A stretch of 64,000 bases of DNA from Candidatus Schekmanbacteria bacterium (GTDB lineage: Bacteria > CSSED10-310 > JACPHN01): positions 1-64,000 of the forward strand of contig JACPHN010000269.1 of assembly GCA_016188575.1 (NCBI GenBank), read 5' to 3'. The position numbers and the translations under genes are program-made. This document shows positions 55,412 to 64,000 of the stretch, one piece after another. Positions within the stretch are counted from its first letter, which is position 1; the number at the start of each line of letters is the position of its first letter. The notes below the pieces were generated by a model. The model saw nothing but the letters and a program-made list of their open reading frames with translations, did not search any database and was not told where the DNA came from.

Positions 55412-56281
55412 ATGAAACAGAAGCTGCTCACCACGTGTCTGGCGATACTGGCCATCGGAACCGCCGCACATGCCGGCACCACCGTGATTCAGAACAAGGG
55501 ATCGGACACGCTGGTCAACGTCGCGCAATCATGGGCTGAGGCGTACCGCGCCAAGAACGGCAGCGTCGTGGTGGCGATTAGTGGCGGCGGCTCCGGAACG
55601 GGGCTGGCGGCGCTGATCAACGGTACGGTCGACATCGCCAATTCAAGTCGAACCATTTCGCGCAAGGAAGTGGAGGAGGCGACTCGCAAGGGGATCAAAC
55701 CCAAAGAGCACATCGTGGGCTTCGATGCACTGGCCGTCTTTGTGCACAAGAACAACCCACTGGAGAAAGTGGCATTGACGGACCTGGCTGAAGTATACGG
55801 CGAGGACGGCGCGATAGAAAGCTGGAAGCAACTTGGCGTAGACGTCCCCGGTTGCAAGAACCAGACCATGGTGCTGGTGAGCCGGCAGAACAATTCGGGG
55901 ACGTACGCATACTTTCGTGAGGCCGTGCTGGGAGAGAGGCGCGACTACAAGCTCGGTACGCACGACATGCATGGATCGAAGGACGTGGTGGACCTCGTGG
56001 AGAAAACCCCTTGCGCGGTAGGCTACAGTGGCTTGGCGTATGCGACGGACCGCGTCAAGATGCTGTGTATTGCCAAAAAAGGCGAAGAGTCCTGCGTGCG
56101 GCCCGGGGTGGAAACGGCGCTCGACGGCTCCTATCCCATCGCGCGACCGCTTTTCATGTATACAAATGGCGAGCCTGTTGGAGCAACCAAGGCGTATCTC
56201 GACTGGATCCTGAGTGACGAGGGTCAGTGCATTCTGTCGAGAAGGGGCTACGCCCCGATCCGCCACGTCACCTGCAAGTAG
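55412..56281 (+). CDS. pstS: Phosphate-binding periplasmic protein
   Basis: The 289-residue PstS-family protein has a signal peptide (ending AAHAG). The phosphate-site motifs are KGSDTLVNVAQSWAEAY, ISGGGSGTGLAALINGTVDIANSSRTI and SRQNNSGTYAYF. It captures phosphate for the PstCAB importer and opens the pst operon. A clear TAGGAG site precedes the ATG. In the gap 55290-55411 one CTGTCAC half-site lies near 55389-55395, but a full Pho box is not present. Confidence 0.95.
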   Translation: MKQKLLTTCLAILAIGTAAHAGTTVIQNKGSDTLVNVAQSWAEAYRAKNGSVVVAISGGGSGTGLAALINGTVDIANSSRTISRKEVEEATRKGIKPKEHIVGFDALAVFVHKNNPLEKVALTDLAEVYGEDGAIESWKQLGVDVPGCKNQTMVLVSRQNNSGTYAYFREAVLGERRDYKLGTHDMHGSKDVVDLVEKTPCAVGYSGLAYATDRVKMLCIAKKGEESCVRPGVETALDGSYPIARPLFMYTNGEPVGATKAYLDWILSDEGQCILSRRGYAPIRHVTCK

Positions 56282-56335
56282 ACGCGCCACCGGCCTCCTA
56301 CCTGTCCCAGGCGGGCGGCCCAAAAAGGGAGGACG

Positions 56336-57433
56336 ATGCCACTGTACGAAGAAAGATTGCAAAGGGACAGCGCGCGCTTGCGGGAGTCCGCGGCCCGTCT
56401 GGCGGAGGTCGTCGAAGCGAATCTCGCCAGCGCGATGCACGCCTTGCTCAAGGGTGACGACGCCCTCGCCAACGTTACGGCGCTTCGCGACAAGCGGGCA
56501 AACCGCATGCTGCGCGAGATTACCCAGGACTGCCACGCGTTCATCGCAAGACATTTGCCCTCAGGTGGGCACTTGCGCCTGGTTTCGTCCATTCTCCGGC
56601 TGGCCACGGAGCTCGAACGCATCGGCGACTATAGCGTAACGATCTCCCGCGAAGCTGTGCACCTGAGCCATCCTCCGCAGGGTATTATCCGCCGCGAGCT
56701 GGAGGCGATGGCTGCGGACGCGCTGCAAATGCTGCGGCAGGCGATGCAGTCCTTCAATCAGGGAAACGCAGAGCTGGCGCGCGGCACCAAAGCAATGGCC
56801 GATCAGGTGGGGCGGCGCCTCGCTGTTGCGGTCGCGGATCTCGTGAGCCAGGCGGATACGGGGAAGGAGACCGTCAAGGACCTTCTCGACTTGTTCGTCA
56901 TTTTTCAAATGCTCGAGCGGGTCAGCGACCGCGCCAAGAACCTTTGTGAGGAGACGCTGTTCGCTACCGTGGGCGAGACGAAGCCGCTGAAGATTTATCA
57001 GGTGCTCTTTGTTGATACGGAAAACAGACTTGCGAGTCAGATGGCGGAATTCATCGGGATGAAGACGTATGGCGACACCGCAAGATTTTCGAGTGGTGGA
57101 AGCCATCCCGCCGCGGCGATCGATCCCCGCCTCGCGCAGTTCATGCAGCGCCACGGCCATGATCTCGGCGATGCGGCGCCCAAGCGCATCGAGCTGAACG
57201 ACGACATCGAAGAGGTTACCGACGTCATCATCAGCCTGGAAGGGCCCGTCCGACAGCATGTCTCCTCCATCCCCTTTCACGCGGCGTTTCTGGCGTGGGA
57301 TCTCGAACCGCTGCCGGAGCTGCCCGGCGAAGCGGACAAGTGGCGGCCGTACGAGCATCTGTACCGCTGCATTTCGGTGCGGATACGGGATCTCATGGAT
57401 CTCCTGCGCGGCGAAGGAGACGGCTCCCCATGA
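56336..57433 (+). CDS. phoU: PhoU fused to an inactive LMW-phosphatase-like domain
   Basis: The protein has 365 residues against about 220-240 for ordinary PhoU. Residues 1-215 carry both PhoU three-helix halves with metal motifs ERIGD (94-98) and ERVSD (194-198). Residues about 218-330 resemble a low-molecular-weight protein tyrosine phosphatase/ArsC-type domain (YQVLFVDTENRLASQMAEFIG). The catalytic P-loop cysteine is Asp 227 and the arginine six residues later is Ala 233, so it cannot work as a phosphatase. The domain might sense phosphate or bind a phosphoprotein. It overlaps the pstC start by four bases, inside the pst operon. PhoU restrains Pst and the PhoR-type kinase. Confidence 0.87.
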   Translation: MPLYEERLQRDSARLRESAARLAEVVEANLASAMHALLKGDDALANVTALRDKRANRMLREITQDCHAFIARHLPSGGHLRLVSSILRLATELERIGDYSVTISREAVHLSHPPQGIIRRELEAMAADALQMLRQAMQSFNQGNAELARGTKAMADQVGRRLAVAVADLVSQADTGKETVKDLLDLFVIFQMLERVSDRAKNLCEETLFATVGETKPLKIYQVLFVDTENRLASQMAEFIGMKTYGDTARFSSGGSHPAAAIDPRLAQFMQRHGHDLGDAAPKRIELNDDIEEVTDVIISLEGPVRQHVSSIPFHAAFLAWDLEPLPELPGEADKWRPYEHLYRCISVRIRDLMDLLRGEGDGSP

Positions 57434-58362
57434 GTCGCCGCCACGCTCCCCCGCGGGCGGAGCGCAAGCCGGACCGCCGTGATTTGGGCTGGTACGTCGA
57501 CAAGGCCGTTGAGGTCGCCGTGTTCGTCGGCGGCGTCTCCGCCATCGTCTTCGTCGTCGGGATATTTGTGTTCATTACGCGGGAGGGGCTTGGATTCGTT
57601 ACGGGACCGTTCGACTTTCGGCAGTTCTTCCTTTCTCCGCGCTGGCGCCCAACTTCGGAATGGAATCCGACCTACGGCATTCTCGCGCTCTTCGCGGGGA
57701 CAGCAAGCGTGACAGGGCTCGCCATGCTGGTCGCCGTGCCATTCTCGATCTGCGCCGCCGTGTTCATTGGCGAGCTCACCGCAGGAAGAACGCGCGAAGT
57801 TCTCAAAGTCCTGGTCGAGTTCCTCGCGGCCATTCCCTCCGTCGTTTGGGGCTTCATTGGTCTGAGCATCATCAACCCTCTGATCATCAACGTTTTCGAC
57901 GTCGCAGTCGGATTGAACGTTCTCAACTCCGGGGTGATTCTGGGGCTCATGGCTGCGCCGATCATGACCTCGATCGCGGAGGACGCTTTTCGCGCCGTTC
58001 CGGAGACGTATCGCGAGGCCGCGGAGGCAATGGGCGCAACGCGCTGGCAGGTTACCTACAAGGTCGTGATTCCTGCCGCGAAAAACGGTCTTCTTGCCGC
58101 CGTCTTGCTCGGCATCGGCCGCGCGTTCGGCGAAACAATGGCGGTGCTCATGGCCAGTGGGCATTCGATCAACTTGCCAACATCGGTATTCGATTCGGTT
58201 CGCGCGCTGACCGCGACGATCGCGGCCGAGCTCGGCGAAACCGCAGTCGGCTCCGATCACTACCGCGCCCTGTTTACCATTGGCATCGTGCTCTTCCTGA
58301 TCACCTTTGCGATCAATCTCACTGCCGACCTCGTGATTCGCGGCACGCGCAGGAAGGAGTAG
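57430..58362 (+). CDS. pstC: Phosphate ABC transporter permease PstC
   Basis: The 310-residue inner-membrane permease has six predicted helices. The conserved PstC segments are FLAAIPSVVWGFIGL, the EAA-like loop TYREAAEAMGATRWQVTYKV and GRAFGETMAVLMASG. The ATG at 57430 overlaps the phoU stop, which sets the start; the longer frame begins inside phoU. It pairs with PstA to form the phosphate channel. Confidence 0.95.
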   Translation: MSRRHAPPRAERKPDRRDLGWYVDKAVEVAVFVGGVSAIVFVVGIFVFITREGLGFVTGPFDFRQFFLSPRWRPTSEWNPTYGILALFAGTASVTGLAMLVAVPFSICAAVFIGELTAGRTREVLKVLVEFLAAIPSVVWGFIGLSIINPLIINVFDVAVGLNVLNSGVILGLMAAPIMTSIAEDAFRAVPETYREAAEAMGATRWQVTYKVVIPAAKNGLLAAVLLGIGRAFGETMAVLMASGHSINLPTSVFDSVRALTATIAAELGETAVGSDHYRALFTIGIVLFLITFAINLTADLVIRGTRRKE

Positions 58363-58370
58363 CCCGATCC

Positions 58371-59240
58371 ATGTTTTCGCCAACCGCGCTCAATCTGCGC
58401 AACCGGCGCCGCGAACGGTGGTTCAGATCCTTGTTCTTGCTGACAACCGTCATTCTGGTTTTTCCGGTAGTCGCCATCCTCGGCACCTTGATTGCCAAAG
58501 GTGGGCCGATTCTCTCGCTTGAATTCTTGTTTACTGAACCCCGCGAAGGCATGACCGCGGGCGGCATTTTCCCGGCGCTGCTCGGCACCGTGTTGCTCGT
58601 CACGGTCTCGCTACTGGCCGCGGTTCCGCTTGGCGTGGCCGCGGCGATTTACCTGAGCGAGTACGCTGCGGAAAGCCGGTTCACCCGGGTCATAAACTTG
58701 GCGATCGTTAACCTCGCAGGGGTACCGTCCATCATCCACGCGCTTTTCGGTCTGGGAGCCTTCGTGCTCTTTCTTGATCTCGGCACGAGCATTCTAGCCG
58801 CCGGCCTCACGCTGGCGATCATGAACCTACCCATACTGATCGTAGCCACGGTCGAGTCCCTTCAGGCGGTGCCAAAGGCGTTTCGCGAGGCGTGTTGGAC
58901 CATGGGCGCGACGCGTTGGCAGACCATCCGCATGGTGGTGTTGCCCAATTCGCTCACCGGGATTCTCACGGGCATCATCCTGGCGGTTTCGCGGGCGGCG
59001 GGAGAGACCGCCCCGATCATGTTTACGGGCGCGGCGTTCTTCATACCGGTCCTGCCGGAAAGCGTATTCGATCAGACCATGGCGCTGTCCCTGCACCTAT
59101 TCGTGGTTACTACCCAGGTTCCTGGTGTGCCGGAAGCTCTCCCCTACGGTGTGGCGCTCACCTTGGTCGGGGTCGTCCTCGCCTTCAATGCCCTGGCAAT
59201 TGGATTTCGGACCCACCTCAGGAGGCGAAAGAAGTGGTGA
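58371..59240 (+). CDS. pstA: Phosphate ABC transporter permease PstA
   Basis: The 289-residue permease has six helices. The PstA signatures are VPSIIHALFGLGAFVLFLDL, the EAA loop AFREACWTMGATRWQTIRMV and SRAAGETAPIMFTGAAFF. The ATG at 58371 lies eight bases past the pstC stop; a much longer frame upstream is antisense-style shadow and is rejected. Its stop overlaps the GTG start of the first pstB gene. Confidence 0.95.
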   Translation: MFSPTALNLRNRRRERWFRSLFLLTTVILVFPVVAILGTLIAKGGPILSLEFLFTEPREGMTAGGIFPALLGTVLLVTVSLLAAVPLGVAAAIYLSEYAAESRFTRVINLAIVNLAGVPSIIHALFGLGAFVLFLDLGTSILAAGLTLAIMNLPILIVATVESLQAVPKAFREACWTMGATRWQTIRMVVLPNSLTGILTGIILAVSRAAGETAPIMFTGAAFFIPVLPESVFDQTMALSLHLFVVTTQVPGVPEALPYGVALTLVGVVLAFNALAIGFRTHLRRRKKW

Positions 59241-60061
59241 CGCCGGGGAGCGACCAGGGGAACACAACGCCGGCGCCCGCCATCGCGGAGACAGGCCGCC
59301 CGGCCACCCGTATCGTGCTCGAGGTGAAAGACCTCGGCGTCTCCTATGGGGAGCATGTCGCACTGTCGGGCGTCAACCTCACGGTCAGGGAGAACGAGAT
59401 ATTCGGAATTATTGGACCCGCGAACAGCGGCAAGACGTCCTTTCTGAAATCGCTCAACCGCATGAACATGTTCAATCGCTCCATGCGTGTGACCGGTGAG
59501 GTTTTGTTTGCCGGCCGCGACGTGCGCCGGTGGCGCAATGTCTACGCGCTGCGCCGGCGCATCGGTGTCGTCTTTCCCTTGCCTGTTGGCCTGCCGCTCT
59601 CCATCTACGACAACGTGGCGCTCGCTCCAAAACTGGCCGGGGTGCGCAAGCGGCAGGAGCTCGACGCCATCGTGGAACGTTGCTTGCGGCGGGCTGCGCT
59701 GTGGGACGAGGTCAAAGACCGTTTGCATTCCCTCGGTAGTCTCCTTTCCGGGGGACAGCAGCAGCGACTCACCATCGCCAGATCGCTCTCGCAAGATCCC
59801 GACCTCCTCCTGCTGGATGAATTCTCGATCGCCGTCGATCCGGTCACGACGATGCGCATCGAGGATGTGCTCAAGGAGCTGCGCAACGAGATGACGATCA
59901 TCCTCGTCACCAATCTCGTTCAGCAAGCCCGGCGGCTGGCGGAGCGGACCGCGTTTTTCCTGTCCGGACGGTGCATCGAGGTCGGCGACACGGAAGCGCT
60001 CTTCGCTGGAGACGTCCAGGATCAGCGGACGCATGATTACATCACCGGGCGCTTTGGATAG
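59237..60061 (+). CDS. pstB: PstB-type ATPase 1 (Q-, D- and H-loop degenerate)
   Basis: The 274-residue PstB homologue has intact Walker A GPANSGKT (60-67), signature LSGGQQQRL (170-178) and Walker B LLLDE (191-195). The Q-loop glutamine, normally in VFQ, is P114 (VVFPLPVGLPLSIYDNV). The D-loop reads FSIAVDP instead of PTSALDP, and the switch histidine is N226 (VTNLVQQA). It can bind ATP and lend a signature motif but should not hydrolyse well alone. The GTG at 59237 overlaps the pstA stop and has AGGAGG 11 bases upstream. A second, complementary PstB follows after 61 bases, suggesting a heterodimer. Confidence 0.92.
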   Translation: MTPGSDQGNTTPAPAIAETGRPATRIVLEVKDLGVSYGEHVALSGVNLTVRENEIFGIIGPANSGKTSFLKSLNRMNMFNRSMRVTGEVLFAGRDVRRWRNVYALRRRIGVVFPLPVGLPLSIYDNVALAPKLAGVRKRQELDAIVERCLRRAALWDEVKDRLHSLGSLLSGGQQQRLTIARSLSQDPDLLLLDEFSIAVDPVTTMRIEDVLKELRNEMTIILVTNLVQQARRLAERTAFFLSGRCIEVGDTEALFAGDVQDQRTHDYITGRFG

Positions 60062-60122
60062 GCTCGCCCGGCCGCAGGAAGGCCGTGGGCCGGACCGATT
60101 GACAAACATGAGGCGCGAAGCG

Positions 60123-60923
60123 ATGACACCCCCAAGCGAAGCAACCGAGCAAACGCCGCCGGCGGCAGCGATCCGTACCCGCAAGCTAAACTTTTGGTAC
60201 GGCAGTTTTCAGGCGCTCTTCGAGGTTGACCTCGAGATCACCGCCGGCATCATTACCTCGCTTATCGGCCCGTCAGGGTGCGGAAAGTCTACTCTGCTCC
60301 GCAGTGTCAACCGGATCAACGAGCGCAGCGGCGATGTGCGCACGACGGGAACCATTGAGGTCCTCGGTCACGACATTCATGGCGAGCGAGTCGAGCTCGC
60401 CAGACTCCGACAGAAGGTAGGAATGGTGTTCCAGCGGCCCAATCCGTTGCCGATCTCCATTCGCGACAATGTGATGTTCGGGTATCGCCTGCAGAACCCG
60501 GCAAACAGCCGTAACAAGAGCGAGCAGGAAGAAATCCTGGAAGGCTCATTGCGCAAAGTGCTGCTGTGGGACGGTGTCAAGGACTGCCTCGGGCGCAAAG
60601 CCACCAGTCTGTCGTTGGAAGAGCAGCAGAAGTTGTGCATTGCCCGCCTACTGCCGGTCAAACCGGCTATACTTTTGATGGACGAGCCTTGCTCGGCGCT
60701 TGATCCGCAAGGCACGGAAGCTGTCGAGGAGCTGATTTGGGAGCTGCGCGGGGATTTCAACATTCTCCTGGTCACGCACAACATGGCGCAAGCGCGCAGG
60801 GCCAGTGAGGAGTGTGTGTTCATGCTCATGGGGAGAGTGATCGAGCATGCGCCGACTGTCGAGATGTTCGTCACGCCCAGGAACCCGCAGACCTCCGACT
60901 ACATTGAGGGCCGGTACGGGTAG
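60123..60923 (+). CDS. pstB: PstB-type ATPase 2 (signature-motif degenerate)
   Basis: The 266-residue PstB homologue has consensus Walker A GPSGCGKST (49-57), Q-loop MVFQRPNP with Q104, Walker B LLMDEP (184-189), D-loop SALDP and switch histidine H219 (VTHNMAQA). The ABC signature is lost: LSGGQ reads LSLEE (163-167). Its own signature cannot complete the partner's site, but its hydrolytic residues can pair with the intact LSGGQ of PstB1. The two would form one working and one dead site in an asymmetric dimer. ATG 60123 is used; ATG 60108 in the same frame is an alternative. It ends the pst operon. Confidence 0.92.
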   Translation: MTPPSEATEQTPPAAAIRTRKLNFWYGSFQALFEVDLEITAGIITSLIGPSGCGKSTLLRSVNRINERSGDVRTTGTIEVLGHDIHGERVELARLRQKVGMVFQRPNPLPISIRDNVMFGYRLQNPANSRNKSEQEEILEGSLRKVLLWDGVKDCLGRKATSLSLEEQQKLCIARLLPVKPAILLMDEPCSALDPQGTEAVEELIWELRGDFNILLVTHNMAQARRASEECVFMLMGRVIEHAPTVEMFVTPRNPQTSDYIEGRYG

Positions 60924-60949: not shown

Positions 60950-62263
60950 CTACCTGCCCAGGTGCTTGTCCAGGCGCGCCAGGTCGCGCTGCAGGTCTCG
61001 CCATCGCGCCTGGCGCTGCGCGTCCGAGGTGAAGGCGAGCCCATGAAACTCCTGCACCGCTGACTGGGCAATCCGTAGCGCTCCGTTCTTGCTGATGAGG
61101 CTGCGAGCGAGCGCGTCGGCTGCGGCCCCGACATAGGTATCGAAAAACCATATCCCCTCGCTTCGAAAGTGCTCGCGGTCCGCGTCCGGCGTGTTGACGA
61201 CGTCGTGAATGAATACCATCCGCACCTTGCCTGGCGGGGAGTCTTGCAACATTCGCTGCCCAAAGGCGACGTCGCCCTGGCCACTGTCTCCGACGAAAAC
61301 GAAGGCATACTCCGGGTATAGTGCCCTGAGCGCACGGAAGCTCTCGAATTTCCCGGCCGCAATCGCGCTGTCGGTGGTGAGATGGGTGACGTCCCCGGCA
61401 AGAACTGTGGCGCCGACAATGCCGCGCTCTCGAAGCGCGTTCTGGGTGGCGTTTTCGACGACCCCAAAGCGCTCGCCGGGCCGCGCGGTTACAAAAGCGA
61501 GGTCGCCCTGCCGGCCGCCGCTCGCTGCCGGACCGCAGTCGAGCTCCTCGTAAAACTGGCGGACCCCCGGGTAAACAGTGCCTTTCGGATAGCGCTCATC
61601 CTTCCAGTTGGCGTAGAGCGTGTCGTCGATATCACTGAGCACCTTCAGATCTACATTCTTCGAGGCCGGCGCCTCGGAGCGGATGTGGTCGAGGATCTCC
61701 TGGCGCAATGTGAGGTCGTCGAGATCGTGAAACAGAAGCTGCGTCAGATCGTGATAGTCGTCGCCGCCATCAATGCGGTTTTTCAGCTCCGTGAGCTCGG
61801 CCCCTCGCGTGCCCAGGAACACGTCGCGCACGGCCTGTTCCCGCTGGCGATCCGTCCGCGCCCGCTGCAGCGCTGTTACCAGAAGGGCGCGGCTTGCGGT
61901 GGAAAGATCGGCAAGTCGTCTGCGGGCGAGCAGGTCGACGAGCGCTACGCGGTTGTCCGGGCCGAAAGCGCGGTCGTCGACATCGGCAAACAGCGCGCCC
62001 AGATTCAGGGCGGCGAGGACGTAGTTGAGCACTTCAGCGGAGCTCTCCTCCAGAATCTGCAGGATTTCTGTTTCGGCTGCGCGGTGTGTGTGACCGGCCT
62101 GGAGCGCCTGAATTCGCCTTATCCTCTCGTCGCCGCGCGGCAGTGTCGAAGGTAGCGGCGCGGCGGCTTTCTCCGTAGGCGGCGCACCGGCCACCGCGGC
62201 ACCGACCAGGACGGCGACCGGCTGGCGCGGTGGGCAACTAGGAGGGCTGTCAGCGATCGGCAT
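60950..62263 (-). CDS. App1-type (DUF2183) phosphatase-domain protein
   Basis: The 437-residue protein's C-terminal half (about residues 205-390) matches the App1/DUF2183 phosphatidate-phosphatase domain of the HAD superfamily. It has LSDIDDTLYAN (D211/D213 catalytic), the serine/threonine loop FVTARP, lysine-bearing segments and FVGDSGQGDVAFG. The N-terminal half is helical and unassigned, with a hydrophobic stretch near residues 14-28 that may be an anchor. ATG 62263 has GGAGG eight bases upstream, so the longer frame is trimmed. It converges with pstB2 and is divergent from the DUF5916 gene. A lipid-phosphate role is inferred from family. Confidence 0.82.
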   Translation of the reverse strand: MPIADSPPSCPPRQPVAVLVGAAVAGAPPTEKAAAPLPSTLPRGDERIRRIQALQAGHTHRAAETEILQILEESSAEVLNYVLAALNLGALFADVDDRAFGPDNRVALVDLLARRRLADLSTASRALLVTALQRARTDRQREQAVRDVFLGTRGAELTELKNRIDGGDDYHDLTQLLFHDLDDLTLRQEILDHIRSEAPASKNVDLKVLSDIDDTLYANWKDERYPKGTVYPGVRQFYEELDCGPAASGGRQGDLAFVTARPGERFGVVENATQNALRERGIVGATVLAGDVTHLTTDSAIAAGKFESFRALRALYPEYAFVFVGDSGQGDVAFGQRMLQDSPPGKVRMVFIHDVVNTPDADREHFRSEGIWFFDTYVGAAADALARSLISKNGALRIAQSAVQEFHGLAFTSDAQRQARWRDLQRDLARLDKHLGR

Positions 62264-62410
62264 GGGGGGTTCCTCCACGACCATCATATCCGCTATCGCG
62301 CACGCCAGCAATTGCCCGGCCAGTCCTGAATGCCCTTGCGCGGGATCGCGAAGGCCGATAGAAATGGGGACATTCACGCTGATGGGGATTCTCGATAATT
62401 GAGGTTTTGC
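62264..62410. other. Divergent control region of App1 and DUF5916 genes
   Basis: The 147-base gap should contain promoters of both divergent genes. It has a slightly AT-rich part around 62388-62412 (TCTCGATAATTGAGG), but no clear -35/-10 pair was found. Confidence 0.35.
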
Positions 62411-64000
62411 TTGAAGTACGGCAGATGGAGAAGGCGCGCTACCACGGCTTGCCGCCGGGTCGCTCAATGCACTGCGGCCGCCGCCGCGATGGCGGCAGCA
62501 TTGGCGGCCTGGTGGCCGGGCGACGCCGACGCGGGCTCGCTCCCGGCAGTTGAGCGCCGGCAGCACAAGGTCACCCTTGCCACCTCAAACGTCGCGGTCG
62601 ACGGGGTCCTCGACGAGGCGGCTTGGCGGGACGCGGCGCGCGTTTCGCTTGACTGGGAGTGGTTTCCCGGCGACAACGTGCCGGCGCTGGTCTCAACGTA
62701 CTGCCTCTTGACATTTGATAGCAAGAACTTCTACGTCGGATTTCGCGCCGCTGACCCCGCCCCTGCCACGATCCGTTCCTACTACGCTGATCGGGACACG
62801 CCGTTTCAGGACGACACGGTGGGTTTTGTAGTCGATCCGTTCAACGATCGCCGCCGCGCCTTCCAATTCCGCGTGAACGCCGTTGGCGTGCAGATGGAGG
62901 CGGTCAACAGCGACATCACCGGCAGCGAGGATTGGTCCTGGGACATCATCTGGGATGCCGCCGCGCGGATCACGAACACGGGCTACGAGGTCGAGATCGC
63001 CGTGCCGTTCAGCCAGCTTCGCTTTCCGATCGAACCGCGCGCGCAAACTTGGGGCTTCCTGGCGATGCGCGACTATCCGCGCGACGTTCGGCACCGGTTG
63101 CGGTCGACCCTGTACGATCGGAGTCTCGACTGCTTCGTGTGCCAGTTCGAGTCCGTGACGGGTTTTGCGGACTTGAGCCCGGGGCGCAATATCGAGGTTG
63201 ATCCCACGCTGACCGCCAAGCGCACCGACGAACGAAACGAATGGCCGCAGGGTTCCATGGAGCAAGGTAGGGCCGAAGTCGAGCCCGGCCTGACGGGCAG
63301 GTGGAGCATCACGCCCAATGTGACCGGAAACATTGCACTGAATCCCGACTTCTCACACGTCGAGGCCGATGCCGCCCAACTTGCCGTCAATGAGCGCTTT
63401 GCGCTCTATTTTCCCGAGAAGCGGCCTTTCTTTCTGGAGGGGGCTGACCTGTTCGAAACACTAATTACCGCCGTGTTCACGCGCACGGTTGCGGACCCGG
63501 AGGCGGGTGTCAAGCTTACGGGTAAGTCCGGTCGCAGCGCATTTGGGGTGATCTTCGCTCGCGACCGCATCAACAATCTGGTGCTTCCGGACTATTTCGG
63601 GTCGGGTCTCGTGTCCGTCGACGCGCCTGTCAATAGCGCGGTGCTGCGCTATCGCGGCGACGTGGGGAAGACCTCGAGCGCCGGATTTCTCTATGCGGGC
63701 CGCGAGGGCGAGGATTACTACAATCACGCGGCGGGCTTTGACGCCCTCTTGCGGCCTGCCGAGTCGGATACCGTGCGCGCGAATCTCTTCTTTTCCCGAA
63801 CGCGGTACGCCGCGATAGTCGCCGCGGCCCAGGGCCAGCCGGCCGATCGGTTTGACGGCGCGGCAGGCCGGCTCAGCTACGATCACGCCGGTCGGGTCTG
63901 GTCATGGTGGGGGCGGTTCGCGGCCTACAGCGACGACTTTCGAGCGGATTCGGGGTTCATTCCGCAGACCGGCTTCCGCCTCGCTCGCGCCGGGGTCTCG
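62411..64000 (+). CDS. DUF5916 protein with CBM9-like N-terminus (3' end outside window)
   Basis: The frame is open from TTG 62411 to the window edge (530 codons). A basic N-terminus and alanine-rich hydrophobic stretch (AAAAMAAALAAWW, cleavage near DADA-GS) form a signal peptide. Next comes a CBM9-like sandwich (VAVDGVLDEAAWRDA, FYVGFRAADP, DDTVGFVVDPFNDRR) and then a DUF5916 outer-membrane-type region (NPDFSHVEADAAQLAVNERF, FPEKRPFFLEGADLF). The TTG follows GAGG at six bases; ATG 62489 would start inside the hydrophobic core. It is probably an outer-membrane protein; its substrate is unknown. Confidence 0.85.
   Translation, partial: MKYGRWRRRATTACRRVAQCTAAAAAMAAALAAWWPGDADAGSLPAVERRQHKVTLATSNVAVDGVLDEAAWRDAARVSLDWEWFPGDNVPALVSTYCLLTFDSKNFYVGFRAADPAPATIRSYYADRDTPFQDDTVGFVVDPFNDRRRAFQFRVNAVGVQMEAVNSDITGSEDWSWDIIWDAAARITNTGYEVEIAVPFSQLRFPIEPRAQTWGFLAMRDYPRDVRHRLRSTLYDRSLDCFVCQFESVTGFADLSPGRNIEVDPTLTAKRTDERNEWPQGSMEQGRAEVEPGLTGRWSITPNVTGNIALNPDFSHVEADAAQLAVNERFALYFPEKRPFFLEGADLFETLITAVFTRTVADPEAGVKLTGKSGRSAFGVIFARDRINNLVLPDYFGSGLVSVDAPVNSAVLRYRGDVGKTSSAGFLYAGREGEDYYNHAAGFDALLRPAESDTVRANLFFSRTRYAAIVAAAQGQPADRFDGAAGRLSYDHAGRVWSWWGRFAAYSDDFRADSGFIPQTGFRLARAGVS

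Follow-up and report, generated by a model that had tools for sequence, protein, structure and literature searches.

Tandem PstB ATPases with reciprocal motif losses predict an asymmetric Pst-type phosphate importer

The Pst system, the textbook high-affinity importer of phosphate, is described as containing a homodimer of the ATPase PstB. The pst operon of a Candidatus Schekmanbacteria genome encodes two adjacent PstB proteins, PstB1 and PstB2, that divide the ABC ATPase motifs between them. We conclude that PstB1 and PstB2 very probably belong to a Pst-type phosphate importer built on an obligate heterodimer in which one site hydrolyses ATP and the other holds it; assembly, ATPase activity and transport are inferred. 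We observe that the motif split is without exception in linked pairs, that it occurs in the context of a pst operon, that the two proteins form mirrored sister clades, and that in some genomes the pair belongs to the only Pst system found.

The window, by which we mean the whole 64,000-nucleotide stretch of DNA that was analysed, lies on contig C136 of a 9.2 Mb source genome (94% complete). A plus-strand operon at 55412-60923 carries pstS, phoU(LMWPc), pstC, pstA, pstB1 and pstB2:

55412..56281, plus strand: pstS, periplasmic phosphate-binding protein (TIGR02136, 228.5 bits, cut-off 206.6; PF12849)
56336..57433, plus strand: phoU fused to a C-terminal LMW-phosphatase/ArsC-like domain without the catalytic Cys (TIGR02135, 134.6 bits, cut-off 130.25; PF01451, 24.5 bits, cut-off 23.2)
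57427..58362, plus strand: pstC, permease, exact start not fixed (TIGR02138, 274.6 bits, cut-off 196.45)
58374..59240, plus strand: pstA, permease, exact start not fixed (TIGR00974, 256.1 bits, cut-off 193.45)
59237..60061, plus strand: pstB1, ATPase subunit with LSGGQ intact, the Q-loop Gln replaced by Pro and the switch His by Asn
60123..60923, plus strand: pstB2, ATPase subunit with Q-loop, Walker B and switch His intact and a degenerate signature

PstS, PstC and PstA are encoded together and each scores above its family cut-off, which meets the criterion for a PstSCAB operon. The GTG start of pstB1 overlaps the stop of pstA, and a pstB2 start upstream of 60123, at 60108 or 60033, is not excluded. 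Most relatives have the same gene order. TIGR00972 (PstB) is the top-scoring family for both PstB1 (287.4 bits) and PstB2 (305.1 bits), but neither reaches its equivalog cut-off of 343.2 bits. The two proteins are therefore PstB-family paralogues and not canonical PstBs. Convergent with pstB2, a minus-strand gene at 60950-62566 encodes a phosphatidate phosphatase APP1 catalytic domain (PF09949).

The ATPase motifs of the two proteins are as follows:

Residues 60-68 of PstB1: Walker A, GPANSGKTS
59570..59584, plus strand: degenerate Q-loop of PstB1, VFPLP, with P114 at the Gln position
59744..59758, plus strand: intact ABC signature of PstB1, LSGGQ, residues 170-174
Residues 194-202 of PstB1: Walker B/D-loop stretch, DEFSIAVDP
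59906..59917, plus strand: switch motif of PstB1, VTNL, with N226 for His
Residues 49-57 of PstB2: Walker A, GPSGCGKST
60426..60440, plus strand: intact Q-loop of PstB2, VFQRP, with Q104
60609..60623, plus strand: degenerate signature of PstB2, LSLEE, residues 163-167
Residues 187-195 of PstB2: Walker B/D-loop stretch, DEPCSALDP
60771..60782, plus strand: intact switch motif of PstB2, VTHN, with H219

The original prediction had PstB1 keeping Walker A and LSGGQ with P114 and N226 as substitutions, and PstB2 keeping Walker A, Q104, the D-loop and H219 with LSLEE as its signature. Translation and residue numbering agree with both descriptions. The D-loop of PstB1 had also been called altered; its sequence is, but the D-loop Asp is retained. 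The SIA[VI]D form of this loop is specific to one PstB1 subgroup, and most other PstB1s have SGLD. PstB1 also retains the Walker B glutamate in 99/99 relatives. With the Walker A Lys, the Walker B Asp and Glu and the D-loop Asp all present, nucleotide binding by PstB1 should persist. The criterion for a PstB equivalog, that all ABC ATPase motifs lie within one protein, is not met because the motifs are divided between two proteins. The pair also fails the criterion for a Firmicutes-type tandem, which has the Q-loop Gln, the switch His and LSGGQ in both copies.

Each site of an ABC dimer combines the Walker A and B motifs and the Q- and H-loops of one subunit with the signature of the other (PMC7756269). 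By this rule, the catalytic residues of PstB2 would face the LSGGQ of PstB1, the Walker motifs of PstB1 would face the L-x-acidic signature of PstB2, and a homodimer of either protein would have no complete site. Site 1, made of PstB2 Walker A/B, Q-loop and His with PstB1 LSGGQ, would be complete and would hydrolyse ATP. Site 2, made of PstB1 Walker A/B, Pro or Ala and Asn at the Q and His positions, and the PstB2 signature, should bind nucleotide but hydrolyse it poorly or not at all. If site 2 is a holding or hinge site, then one hydrolysis would drive each transport cycle. An asymmetric ATPase pair is plausible here because PstC and PstA are already unlike each other. The composite sites, heterodimer assembly, hydrolysis at one site, ATP parked in site 2 and phosphate as the substrate are all inferred by analogy with other ABC transporters.

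Structure modelling supports the fold of each subunit and leaves the dimer unresolved. At one relative locus (L105), B1 and B2 are in frame, and we modelled them as one chain with the single stop between them read through as serine. AlphaFold folded both domains well (mean pLDDT 85.6) and gave no confident dimer (pTM 0.58); the single-chain model differs from twin-domain chains by an rmsd of about 20 Å. Each half of the model folds like an ABC ATPase. The best match in both structure and sequence is E. coli PstB (9k3x, 9k3s), and the PstB1 half superimposes on 9k3x_C with a Z score of 34.6 and an rmsd of 1.2 Å over 245 residues.

The same pair is carried by G002, a genome from another family of the same phylum, with 74% and 71% identity. 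When 84,980 species genomes were scanned, PstB1 had at least 588 relatives, of which the best 80 were kept. The scan patterns included GGQQQRLT, which biases the set toward an intact LSGGQ in PstB1; the motifs of the partner were not selected. PstB1 adjoins a complementary PstB2 at every one of these loci that has a readable neighbour. When all loci are considered, 99/99 fully readable pairs are reciprocal, with both genes on one strand and PstB1 upstream. We found no lone PstB1 or PstB2 wherever the neighbour was readable, and no natural pstB1-pstB2 gene fusion among the loci examined. Sequences outside both classes are third paralogues, PstBs of separate operons and one unrelated gene, and none of them is in an adjacent pair. 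Because the B1 and B2 classes were assigned by motif, the weight of these data rests on the lack of exceptions and not on the counts themselves. Carriers span at least 13 named phyla and many unnamed families, and include Ca. Accumulibacter and Dechloromonas. Conservation of this split across phyla rules out chance.

We also surveyed tandem pstB genes independently of their motifs. The TIGR00972 profile was run against 389 genomes, 277 of which gave matches with E values of 1e-75 or lower, and every adjacent pair was taken from genomes with at least two PstB matches (n = 23). Twenty-one pairs were reciprocal, with the Q-loop Gln and His lost in one protein and the signature in the other. In the remaining two, both genes were canonical. 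None of the 23 had non-reciprocal losses, be it both on the same side or on a single side only. The asymmetric kind thus makes up most of the tandem pstB genes sampled. Scattered or non-reciprocal changes in linked homologues would have refuted the original prediction, and none were found: the criterion for an asymmetric ABC ATPase, reciprocal losses that leave one complete composite site, is met by all 99 linked pairs and by 21/23 pairs in the survey.

Some genomes with the pair encode further PstB-like proteins. A third, divergent PstB-like ATPase lies 1-2 kb downstream of the pair at L091 (6690), L094 (6469), L105 (6548), L109 (6477) and L136 (1471). The hosts are Poribacteria and one other genome, and the motif losses are all within one protein (VFRKP, LSIGQ, DEPCGELDP and ATNKR in Poribacteria; VTNKR at L136). 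Longimicrobiales with the reciprocal pair also hold a separate pst operon (L141, 478-2235; L143, 595-2235), whose divergent PstB has LSAGQ and a switch His that is replaced by Tyr in L141 and kept in L143.

In a tree of 117 sequences, the true PstB1s form one clade and the true PstB2s another (SH-aLRT 97 each), and the subgroups of the two clades mirror each other. Canonical PstBs fall outside both clades, as do the two canonical survey pairs. L143, assigned to B2 by motif, is the separate PstB with LSAGQ and is placed elsewhere in the tree, and L107, an unrelated long-branched gene, is placed inside the B1 group. The B1 and B2 groups persist when the motif columns are masked, with two outgroup rows then beside B1. 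Distance matrices of PstB1 and PstB2 are correlated (r = 0.89), and 0/2000 permutations gave a value as high, although shared ancestry contributes to this correlation. Identity between PstB1 and PstB2 within a pair is 33-57%. These sequences are most simply explained by one ancient duplication, after which the two genes were inherited or transferred jointly. Since the founding pattern would come from one ancestral duplication, the 99 pairs do not represent 99 independent events.

We measured conservation of the degenerate site on 87 non-redundant pairs. The switch position of PstB1 is Asn in 87/87, position 4 of the PstB2 signature is Glu or Asp in 85/87, and PstB1 has the Walker B Glu in 87/87 and the Walker A Lys wherever it is readable. 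The Q-loop Gln position of PstB1s is Pro, Ala or Asp. Signature pentapeptides take 21 forms in PstB2, at site 2, versus 3 in PstB1, at site 1. The constant Asn and nearly constant acidic residue at position 4 argue for selection for a specific state of the site and not for decay, and we rejected PstB1 as a decaying copy on the basis of its conservation. Judged by these residues, the degenerate site looks like a selected state that may hold nucleotide without hydrolysing it.

The heterodimer could be real and yet have two functional sites, with the Asn and the acidic signature tolerated and two ATP hydrolysed per cycle. All PstB1s keep the Walker B Glu, and the active site of MRP1 keeps transport with Asn at the H-loop (PMC7756269), so site 2 may hydrolyse slowly. 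We nevertheless consider two working sites quite unlikely. Three features are missing from site 2 at once, the Q-loop Gln, the His and the signature glycine or glycines, and its signature varies while that of site 1 hardly does. The change from Gly to an acidic residue at signature position 4 is also that of Pdr5, which has one catalytic site and an inactive, deviant site with the signature LNVEQ (PMC8421411).

The fusion of PhoU to an LMW-phosphatase/ArsC-like domain is present in the pst operon at 45/80 pair loci. The catalytic Cys of the fused domain is mostly replaced by Asp and is absent in many of the 45 fused loci. Given this frequency, the phosphatase-like PhoU seems to belong with the asymmetric importer. 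Such a fusion could also mean that a different oxyanion is imported by this Pst-like system, or that the system chiefly senses phosphate, with its asymmetric ATPases serving signalling and not bulk uptake. E. coli PhoU and PhoR have been proposed to read out the conformation of Pst (PMC5775613), and in the source genome a second pst locus, with phoR/phoB, survives as remnants, both of which fit a sensor. We find this reading improbable, because PstS, PstC and PstA score above the cut-offs of the phosphate families and many genomes lack any further match to PstA or PstB. Uptake and signalling are, moreover, not mutually exclusive.

The original prediction would also have been undone by a complete third pstB elsewhere in the genome that forms the real importer. 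A third, canonical pstB does exist in the source genome, on contig C5 (83364-84104, 386.8 bits), next to phoU, and to that extent the condition is literally fulfilled, but no PstA or PstC match above the cut-off was found in this genome outside the window operon. The C5 locus (L017, 5668-8988) is a second pst locus with the canonical pstB, phoU and phoR/phoB. As assembled, its pstS runs across several frames, a pstC-like stretch recognised by eye stops after about 200 residues, and neither pstA nor an intact pstC was found there. It is either a degraded locus or an assembly fault, and the latter cannot be excluded. In principle, the canonical third PstB of the source genome could join the complex.

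Eleven genomes, one of them a complete Dechloromonas chromosome, have no strong PstB match apart from the pair, which lies beside the only PstC and PstA. On that chromosome, from Dechloromonas sp. SSD3, there is one further match to the PstB profile, at 200 bits, in the range of amino-acid-type ATPases. In the other ten genomes the PstB profile matches two proteins only, the members of the pair. These pair-only genomes, and the absence of any other PstA or PstC match above the cut-off in the source genome, led us to reject a third pstB as the real importer as a general explanation. That one subunit is decaying or purely regulatory, while the other subunit, or a canonical PstB encoded elsewhere, forms the importer as a homodimer, is very hard to credit: it can point to the canonical pstB beside phoU on C5 and to the tandem pstB genes of E. 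faecalis, where pstB1 is accessory and excess PstB2 can substitute (PMC12096839), but no complete site would come from PstB1 or PstB2 alone, both are conserved (median identity across phyla about 60% for each) and never alone where the neighbour is readable, in eleven genomes no further strong PstB match was found, and the C5 locus as assembled has no pstA and no intact pstC.

If a large and ancient branch of Pst does rely on an obligate heterodimer in which one site is dead, this would apply across at least 13 phyla, with the polyphosphate-accumulating Ca. Accumulibacter and Dechloromonas among the carriers. The energetics of Pst, the way PhoU signals and how "duplicate" pstB genes are annotated would all have to be reconsidered. 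Symmetric and asymmetric versions of one importer would both exist in nature, so the purpose of a degenerate ATP site, a long-standing question, could be tested in a simple uptake system and not in drug exporters. We suggest only tentatively, as a possibility that may well not hold, that this is a second Pst class across phyla, in which a single hydrolytic site spends about 1 ATP per phosphate and a dedicated PhoU-pseudoenzyme fusion reads the permanently nucleotide-loaded degenerate site, so that cheaper uptake would be coupled to phosphate sensing.

No description of reciprocal PstB degeneration was found in the open-access literature; the closest reports concern E. faecalis (PMC12096839) and B. 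subtilis (PMC11466899). The principle of a degenerate ATP site is known, but its occurrence as a large ancient Pst branch is not, as far as could be found. E. coli PstSCAB shares its operon parts and ATPase fold with the window system, but it has one PstB with all motifs where the window system has two with reciprocal losses. Firmicutes tandems likewise have two adjacent pstB genes within one pst operon. In B. subtilis, PstBA and PstBB have been placed in the same transporter model (PMC11466899). The adjacent pstB1 and pstB2 of E. faecalis have non-equivalent roles and complete motifs in both proteins (PMC12096839), and unlike the window pair they have no degenerate site. Fused ABC importers of the RbsA/NupO type have one degenerate ATP site (PMC11466899), but their two domains are in one chain and the Walker A Lys is lost, whereas PstB1 and PstB2 are separate chains with Walker A and B intact. 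TAP1/TAP2, TM287/288, BmrCD and Pdr5 resemble the pair in having reciprocal losses that give one consensus and one degenerate composite site. Restoring canonical residues at the deviant site of Pdr5 is reported to abolish transport or uncouple it (PMC7756269). In many asymmetric ABC exporters the Walker B Glu is lost at the degenerate site (PMC7756269). The system described here differs from them in being an importer, in which this Glu is never lost and the losses fall on the Q-loop Gln and switch His instead.
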